Assembly: GCA_003228125.1 (NCBI GenBank)
Contig: QGNP01000007.1
Coordinates: forward strand, 1-54,782
Source of the DNA: Chloroflexota bacterium
Lineage (GTDB): Bacteria; Chloroflexota; Dehalococcoidia; UBA2979
Reading direction: 5' to 3'
Length of the DNA: 54,782 nt
A model generated the notes under the pieces. It searched no databases. It saw only the letters and a list, made by a program, of their open reading frames with translations, and had not been told where the DNA came from. The position numbers and the translations under genes are program-made. Below, piece after piece: positions 46,107 through 47,700 of this stretch (position 1 is the stretch's first letter; every line of letters begins with the position of its first letter).

Positions 46107-46454
46107 ATGGATGATAAAAAAAAATTATCAATTACTAAGAAAAATTTTACTAACCTTGTTTCTTTTTACGAAGAAAATATAGGATTTCTCACTAGTTCAA
46201 TTACTGATAGGCTAGCTATTATTGTTGAAATTTATCCCATTGAGTGGATTTTTGAGGCTATTAGTTATGCAAAATCTCATGATATAAGAGCATGGACATT
46301 TATACAAAATTATTTAGAAAATAAATTAGTTAAGTCTAATAAAAATTATCAAAGAAAGGATGAAATGAATGCAGAATCTACAGAATTTTTTTCCACATCA
46401 AGATCAAAGCAAGACCCATATCAATCTGTCGTCAAAAGAACTTGGCGAAGATAA
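46107..46454 (+). CDS. DnaD-domain-like protein (candidate helicase-loading factor)
   Basis: LVSFYEENIGFLTSSITDRLAIIVEIYPIEWIFEAISYAKSHDIRAWTFIQNYLENK resembles the DnaD C-terminal domain (YEE..G.L......L......P.EWI..AI..A.....R.W.YI...L..W). Lies between dnaB and the DnaC-like ORF. Confidence 0.7.
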   Translation: MDDKKKLSITKKNFTNLVSFYEENIGFLTSSITDRLAIIVEIYPIEWIFEAISYAKSHDIRAWTFIQNYLENKLVKSNKNYQRKDEMNAESTEFFSTSRSKQDPYQSVVKRTWRR

Positions 46455-47700
46455 AATTGTAGTTAAATGTAAAAAGTGCAATGATGCTAAGTTTGTTAGA
46501 TTGAATTTACCAGTCGACGATCCTGATTTTGGAAAACCGATTTCATGCGAATGCATTTATGACGAACTCCCTGAACACAAAAGAGAAAAATTACTTATTT
46601 TTTCAAGAATTGACTCTTTAATAATGGTTACTTTTGATTTTATTGAGAAAAATTATAATCATTTTAATAATAATTTTTCTCAGCCTTTAAAAAAAGCGAT
46701 GGATTTTGCACAAGAAAAAAAAGGATGGTTGATTATTCAAGGCCATTCAGGATCTGGCAAAACAAGTTTGTCTGCTGCAATTCTTAATGTTTATCTTGAC
46801 AGTCAAATAGCATCACTTTTTTATTCATCTAATGATTTATTTGAGGAATTTTATTCTTCAATGAATGCAGGCAACCAAAAATATTCAAATTTGGTGGATA
46901 AGTTAAAAAATATCGAGATGTTAGTTATTGATGATTTGAATTTAACTCATGTTTCTCCGTGGGCAATGGAAAAATTTATTCAAATTTTGATTTATCGTTA
47001 TGAAAAAAAATTATCTACTGTCATTAACTATATTAATTTACCTGATGATATTGATGATAGATTATTAACACGATTGAATGATAACAAAAATTGTCAAAAA
47101 ATTTTTATTGATAAAGCAGTAGATAATTTTTTTGCTGTGGGAGGAATGATTAAAAATGTCTTAAAAAATTATAGTTTTGATAATTTTGAATCTAAGGGAC
47201 ATGGATTAATTGGAGAAATTAAAGCTAATTTAGAAGATGCTTTAAACTTATCTAAGAATTGGACTGAAAAACCAGAAGGATGGCTAGTATTAATAGGAAT
47301 GCCAGGCTGTGGTAAAACTCACCTTGCTGCTTCTATATGTAATCAAAGAATGCAATTAGGAGATGAAGTTTGCTTTGCCAGCGTTCCAGATTTACTTGAT
47401 GAATTAAGATCAAGCTATGCTAATAAAGATGATAGAAATTTTGATCAGTTGTTTAAAAAAATTATGAACGTAGAAATTTTAGCTTTAGATGATTTAGGAG
47501 CGCATCAAATTAGCCCATGGGTAGATGAAAAATTGTATCAATTATTCAATTATCGTTATATAAAAAAATTACCTACTATTATTACTAGGAATACTCAGAG
47601 CAGTTCCTTGGATGTCAGAATTAAATCCAGACTTGCTGATTTAAAGCTAGCAACTAATTTTGAAATTTTAGCTCCTGATTACAGAATTGGCTCTATTTAG
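46369..47700 (+). CDS. DnaC/IstB-like helicase loader with N-terminal zinc finger and two tandem AAA+ domains
   Basis: CKKCNDAKFVRLNLPVDDPDFGKPISCEC N-terminus; Walker A GHSGSGKTS and GMPGCGKTH; Walker B MLVIDDLNLTHVSPW and ILALDDLGAHQISPW. SD AAAGGA is 8 nt before the ATG. Confidence 0.82.
   Translation: MQNLQNFFPHQDQSKTHINLSSKELGEDKIVVKCKKCNDAKFVRLNLPVDDPDFGKPISCECIYDELPEHKREKLLIFSRIDSLIMVTFDFIEKNYNHFNNNFSQPLKKAMDFAQEKKGWLIIQGHSGSGKTSLSAAILNVYLDSQIASLFYSSNDLFEEFYSSMNAGNQKYSNLVDKLKNIEMLVIDDLNLTHVSPWAMEKFIQILIYRYEKKLSTVINYINLPDDIDDRLLTRLNDNKNCQKIFIDKAVDNFFAVGGMIKNVLKNYSFDNFESKGHGLIGEIKANLEDALNLSKNWTEKPEGWLVLIGMPGCGKTHLAASICNQRMQLGDEVCFASVPDLLDELRSSYANKDDRNFDQLFKKIMNVEILALDDLGAHQISPWVDEKLYQLFNYRYIKKLPTIITRNTQSSSLDVRIKSRLADLKLATNFEILAPDYRIGSI

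Follow-up and report, generated by a model that had tools for sequence, protein, structure and literature searches.

A tandem AAA+ protein as the probable resident helicase loader of a Dehalococcoidia lineage

The 443-residue protein encoded behind dnaB in the window (the whole 54,782-nucleotide stretch of contig QGNP01000007.1 analyzed here) is very probably the resident helicase loader of its Dehalococcoidia lineage, and it carries two AAA+ modules in one chain. Its assignment to the DnaC/DnaI type, by domain content and genomic context, is familiar ground; the presence of two AAA+ modules per chain is what sets it apart. How many loader subunits, docking domains, and ATPase sites are needed per DnaB ring is hard to test in homo-oligomers, where a mutation hits every site. 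In a natural tandem, the halves are unequal and can be mutated separately, which opens the question to direct test. If the mechanism proposed below is true, such proteins offer a natural test of the number and order of the loader ATPase sites needed. Annotation as 'ATP-binding protein' or 'DnaC' would mask the fact that the replication machinery has changed across a class.

The initial annotation had placed the protein after dnaB and a DnaD-like ORF, and both the ORF coordinates and the profile matches agree: the three genes are consecutive and all on the plus strand (Table 1). DnaB is the presumed substrate of the loader. The DnaD-like and tandem ORFs share 86 nucleotides, and the ATG of the latter lies immediately 3' of a TGA (46366-46371). 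Given this overlap and a pLDDT below 50 for residues 1-29 in the AF2 model, the start codon of the 443-residue form is uncertain, and these residues may be disordered or not translated. The reading frame itself is real and not due to chance, since another genome of the same genus encodes a full-length homologue, also of 443 residues, that is 56% identical. The host genome (Chloroflexota, class Dehalococcoidia; 1.1 Mb in 22 contigs, 84% complete) encodes one DnaC-like protein, the only other match being weak (4.9e-6) and to a protein of DnaA length.

Table 1. Features of the locus, with positions in the window and the basis of each assignment.
Feature	Positions	Strand	Basis
dnaB, replicative helicase, 468 aa	44696-46102	+	TIGR00665 464 bits (cut-off 385); Pfam DnaB + DnaB_C
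DnaD-like protein, 115 aa	46107-46454	+	PF07261 family; PHROG DnaD-like; alignment; AF2
Tandem AAA+ protein, putative helicase loader, 443 aa	46369-47700	+	Profile matches; homologue; AF2
Four-cysteine N-terminal motif C34-x2-C37 ... C60-x-C62, one per chain	46468-46554	+	Conserved Cys
D1, first AAA+ module, residues 79-258, degenerate sensors	46603-47142	+	N-half HMM; PF01695; residue table
D1 Walker A GHSGSGKT, residues 125-132	46741-46764	+	Lys in 144/145 relatives
D1 Walker B (..VIDD)	46918-46935	+	First Asp 100%, second 97%
D1 Arg finger R235 (DnaC R220 equivalent)	47071-47073	+	Dehalococcoidia clade: R 85% + K 6%
D2, second AAA+ module, residues 259-442, full canonical set	47143-47694	+	C-half HMM; PF01695; residue table
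D2 Walker A GMPGCGKT, residues 310-317	47296-47319	+	Lys in 100% of 145
D2 Walker B (..ALDD)	47476-47493	+	Asp 99% and 98%
D2 Arg finger R421 (DnaC R220 equivalent)	47629-47631	+	R in 145/145
D2 sensor II R439 in APDYR (DnaC R237 equivalent)	47683-47685	+	Not in D1

A profile search of each half had been proposed from the outset. Scanned separately, both exceeded the Pfam cut-off for IstB_IS21 (PF01695; D1 37.6 and D2 62.1 bits, cut-off 24.1), and both matched PHROG 50, 'DnaC-like helicase loader' (6e-29 and 4e-41); identity between D1 and D2 is 29-44%. The Walker A, Walker B, and DxRxxxRL-type motifs that had been read in each half are all present in the sequence. An R-x3-R-L motif occurs as R231/R235 in D1, with R231 the Arg-coupler equivalent, and as R417/R421 in D2; DnaC R216 and R220 were set opposite the first and second Arg by the motif R-x3-R-[LM], where MAFFT had R216 opposite the second. 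The four cysteines of the N-terminus, which presumably form a zinc-binding, helicase-binding domain, are invariant in A1 and invariant or at least 90% conserved in A2.

The AF2 model, built with 76 relatives, has a mean pLDDT of 86.8 and predicts two separate, well-folded AAA+ modules after the four-cysteine segment, with a pTM of 0.66 that leaves their mutual arrangement unfixed. The linker is short: 33-40 residues separate the Arg finger of D1 from the first conserved Phe in D2. In a Foldseek search against the PDB, the single-domain matches were DnaC, DnaI, and IstB, with a target TM of up to 0.75 for DnaC/DnaI. The top Foldseek rank of p97 was rejected as evidence of p97-like stacking, since p97 came first merely for having two AAA domains in a chain (TM about 0.4, rmsd 11-18 Å); p97 and NSF have two classic AAA (PF00004) modules in stacked rings, whereas the single domains here match DnaC/DnaI instead.

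Among known loaders, DnaI of Firmicutes (4m4w, 2w58; profile match E 1e-23) shares with the tandem protein a DnaC/I AAA+ module, a DnaD partner, and a Walker B ending in DD, and has a zinc-binding N-terminal domain where the tandem protein has a presumed one; it differs in having one AAA+ module per chain, a non-covalent dimer, and a zinc domain on each monomer. E. coli DnaC (6qel/6qem; profile match 2.5e-24) shares the Walker, Arg-coupler, Arg-finger, sensor II, and ssDNA-contact positions, but has one AAA+ module, no N-terminal zinc motif, a Walker B with DE, six separate subunits, and no DnaD partner. Where DnaC/DnaI loaders have one AAA+ module per chain, 145 distinct proteins collected here have two. 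The loaders fetched from other Chloroflexota (L156-L160) each have a single AAA+ module, resemble the tandem protein in their CxxC...CxC N-terminus and close AAA+ sequences, lie downstream of dnaB in two cases (L158 and L159), and differ in having all sensors and fingers intact. One of them, L159 (1690-3240, plus strand; genome G102, family f53), has a low-complexity N-terminal extension of about 290 residues before the zinc motif.

Of 301 Chloroflexota genomes sampled evenly, with DnaC-like defined as a match at E of at most 1e-30, 183 had a DnaC-like protein, 101 had DciA, 17 had neither, and none had both. DciA, a common loader that presumably does the same job, has an unrelated fold, is no ATPase, and acts independently of ATP; it and the DnaC-like proteins replace each other across Chloroflexota. 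The Fisher value for this association (1e-62) overstates the evidence, because species are not independent and share ancestry; an exclusion without any exception is nevertheless strong. It is the pattern from which Brezellec et al. inferred loader replacement in their 2016 paper, where one domestication of dna[CI] is recorded for Chloroflexi (PMC5109545). In the window's own genome, 84% complete, PF05258 (DciA) gave no match. Since DnaC-like proteins and DciA never occur together in the 301 genomes, the tandem protein is very probably the resident loader. The gene has the marks of a resident, non-mobile one, with a conserved dnaB-dnaD context and the replacement of DciA: dnaB lies just upstream on the same strand in 121 of the 122 tandem loci where it was within reach. 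The 17 genomes without a strong match to either loader may hold a third or divergent loader, or may be incomplete.

An alternative identity, as a transposition ATPase like IstB or some other AAA+ protein that remodels DNA, is extremely improbable. Pfam's top name for it is IstB_IS21, which is to be expected of a model that spans DnaC, DnaI, and IstB alike, and IstB of IS21 (8q3w) belongs to the same AAA+ clade. IstB, however, dimerizes via its N-terminal domain, has a transposase partner and one AAA+ module per chain, and works as a pentamer of dimers (PMC11208146). The NCBIfam model IS21_help_AAA stayed below its cut-off (125.7 against 200), the upstream neighbours, in relatives as well, are dnaB and the DnaD-like ORF rather than a transposase, and the conserved dnaB-dnaD locus and the DciA exclusion likewise argue against this reading. 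The initial view of a DnaC/DnaI-type loader therefore holds on domain family, dnaB-dnaD locus, and DciA exclusion (0/301), and helicase-loading activity, as judged from sequence and context, is highly likely.

A taxonomic survey, also proposed at the start, found the tandem form in Dehalococcoidia and in many Anaerolineae-type genomes. Matches occurred in 54 of 60 related genomes, the named relatives being Dehalococcoidia, Anaerolineae, and other Chloroflexota. In the sample, 41 genomes of the same class had a DnaC-like protein, with a match running through both halves in 39 and a single AAA+ domain in two (G053 and G239). Other genomes, assigned to the Anaerolineae type by similarity, gave two adjacent matches in one ORF, and the 13 that were fetched were confirmed as tandem. 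The tandem form is also carried by complete genomes in a single contig whose size resembles that of Dehalococcoides (1.4-1.5 Mb; family f13). The initial annotation had allowed that the architecture might prove widespread and already characterized; it is widespread (39/41 in Dehalococcoidia and many Anaerolineae-type genomes), but no description of a tandem or double-AAA helicase loader was found in the full text of open-licence PMC papers, nor was the tandem form found in the PDB or, by term search, mentioned in the main text of PMC5109545.

The best 80 loci of a scan of 84,980 species belonged to Chloroflexota, bar a handful of records whose names are different or vague; one such record (L043) is identical in ORF length and domain scores to L114, from a genome listed as the same phylum. 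A phage or plasmid origin was considered and rejected: matches in 467 phage records, 2851 plasmids, and the 80 best IMG/VR loci had one AAA+ module each, and the one viral ORF flagged as double proved to be a fragment hit of 33 residues in a 297-residue ORF. In a FastTree analysis of 299 rows, all 145 D1 modules fell with only 4 D2 modules on one side of a branch (0.94). AU tests on 64 rows did not separate a single in-register duplication, a swapped-order history, and independent duplications in the two clades (p 0.60-0.66). In two genomes from other Dehalococcoidia families, the same dnaB-dnaD locus holds a zinc motif joined directly to a single D2-type AAA+ module (L154, 2773-3690, and L155, 3097-3963, both minus strand), apparently through secondary loss of D1; L155 also lacks sensor II and one Walker B acid.

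The two halves of the tandem proteins are conserved unequally. The 145 distinct proteins, 101 of Dehalococcoidia type and 44 others (Anaerolineae type), were split into halves and aligned. Across all 145 and in both halves, the Walker A Lys is present in 99-100%, the Walker B Asp in 99-100%, and the second acid in 97-98%; the Arg finger (DnaC R220) is kept in 100% of D2 and 85-98% of D1. It had been considered that one half might lack a functional ATP site in most relatives; in fact, Walker A, Walker B, and the Arg finger are intact in both halves of 129/145. The sensors diverge in opposite directions. Sensor II Arg (R237) is missing from D1 in 100/101 Dehalococcoidia-type proteins and present in 87% of their D2, and the other 44 have it in 98% of D1 and 43% of D2. 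Sensor I, variable in both halves, is Asn (N203) in 95% of D1 of these 44, with mostly Ala or Ser in D2. Halves without sensor II usually retain the Arg finger as R or K, namely in 91/100 D1 of Dehalococcoidia type and 25/25 D2 of the other type. The D1 finger is replaced by H, F, or Y in 9/101 Dehalococcoidia-type proteins (L009, L022, L039, L059, L068, L095, L126, L129, and L135).

Since the single-AAA loaders L156-L160 retain all of these residues (5/5), the sensors were lost after fusion, from opposite halves in the two groups. The fused AAA+ pair with built-in asymmetry that the initial annotation had suggested is thus borne out to the extent that the halves look functionally unequal. In E. 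coli DnaC, mutating any of K112, E170, N203, R220, and R237 abolishes ATPase activity (PMC8213410); because DnaC needs all five motif residues, the degenerate half probably binds ATP but hydrolyzes it poorly. Most relatives keep the ssDNA-contact residues, R/[FY]/[TS]/W, in D1 and D2 alike, as though the two modules lined a single pore.

Further losses mark D1 of the window's protein. Ile stands at sensor I, the sensor II Arg is absent, and Tyr and Met occupy the positions of DnaC Lys143 and Phe146, so that the contact tetrad (DnaC K143, F146, S177, Y179) reads Y/M/S/W in D1 and R/Y/S/W in D2. In both genomes of the genus, D1 lacks sensor I, sensor II, and two ssDNA contacts, and D2 has all of these. 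The description of two complete AAA+ modules therefore applies to D2, with its full set, but not to D1, where the sensors and part of the DNA-contact site are gone. D1 in this genus could be at most an ATP-binding, finger-donating partner. It is unlikely, though these losses speak for it, that D1 here is a decaying relic. In that case D2 alone would act like any DnaC with a single domain, and the tandem would have no mechanistic meaning. The long branch of D1 and its loss in L154 and L155 fit such decay, and D1 is dispensable in at least these two, because a D2-type single-AAA loader occupies the same locus; yet both species of the genus, with proteins only 56% identical, retain Walker A, Walker B, the Arg coupler, and the Arg finger in D1.

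A mixed ring, in which three tandem chains sit on each DnaB hexamer with D1 and D2 alternating and D2 as the firing half, is inferred with middling confidence. One N-terminal, presumed zinc-binding domain per chain would dock on DnaB, and the DnaD-like protein and the loader would bring DnaB to the origin. The three chains would form a cracked ring of six AAA+ modules, in which D2 would bind and hydrolyze ATP, and D1 would bind ATP and give its Arg finger to the D2 site, with weak or no hydrolysis of its own, so that roughly half of the interfaces would fire. Once ssDNA bound in the pore, D2 would hydrolyze its ATP and the loaded helicase would be set free. In relatives of the Anaerolineae type, the two halves would exchange these roles. 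In an alternating ring each finger would serve the other half's site, so a cis sensor could be lost while the trans finger was kept, and retention of the finger in halves without sensor II is what would be expected if the degenerate half completes its partner's site. Two observations make three double units plausible: DnaI was seen as three dimers per DnaB hexamer, in a 7.5 Å crystal structure where the partners of a dimer contact DnaB differently (PMC3791466), and the trans Arg finger is retained in the degenerate half. Fusion of the dimer would render the DnaI arrangement permanent. More tentatively, and with somewhat more doubt than for the ring itself, a covalent AAA+ dimer may have replaced the homo-oligomeric ring in two classes, with three chains providing three hydrolyzing sites and three mainly ATP-binding, finger-donating sites, the active half being D2 in the Dehalococcoidia type and D1 in the Anaerolineae type.

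Several findings sit uneasily with the mixed ring. One zinc domain per chain leaves only three docking domains per hexamer; 9/101 proteins of the Dehalococcoidia type have lost the D1 finger, a loss that a ring with strict alternation could not bear; L154 and L155 do without D1; and sensor I varies in both halves. The first two would be accommodated if six tandem chains bound each hexamer, with a D2-D2 ring as in DnaC and D1 as a second tier or hanging regulatory domain: one docking domain per chain would then supply the six contacts known from DnaB6-DnaC6 (PMC4828956), and a sub-lineage without the D1 finger that keeps its D2 finger fits homotypic D2 interfaces. This arrangement is rather doubtful, though a little less so than the relic. 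If D1 stood apart from the D2 sites, its finger should decay together with sensor II, yet 91/100 D1 and 25/25 D2 of the other clade keep it, and the D1-D2 linker is short.

The assignment of the DnaD-like partner draws on its family. On its own the window's ORF gave a weak Pfam match (E 0.0078), and PF07261 (DnaD/DnaB_2 domain) was matched at E<0.01 by 47/47 family members scanned, these being ORFs between dnaB and the loader. Its product also has a DnaD-like PHROG match, and the AF2 core consists of four helices; in a fold search, the DnaD-domain structures 2zc2 and 2i5u ranked first and third (prob 0.95 and 0.75, with E-values that are not significant). By alignment, the protein keeps only the C-terminal DnaD (DDBH2-like) domain and a tail. 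The N-terminal region of relatives has been lost in the window's genus (A3, A4), leaving 115 residues against about 220-260.
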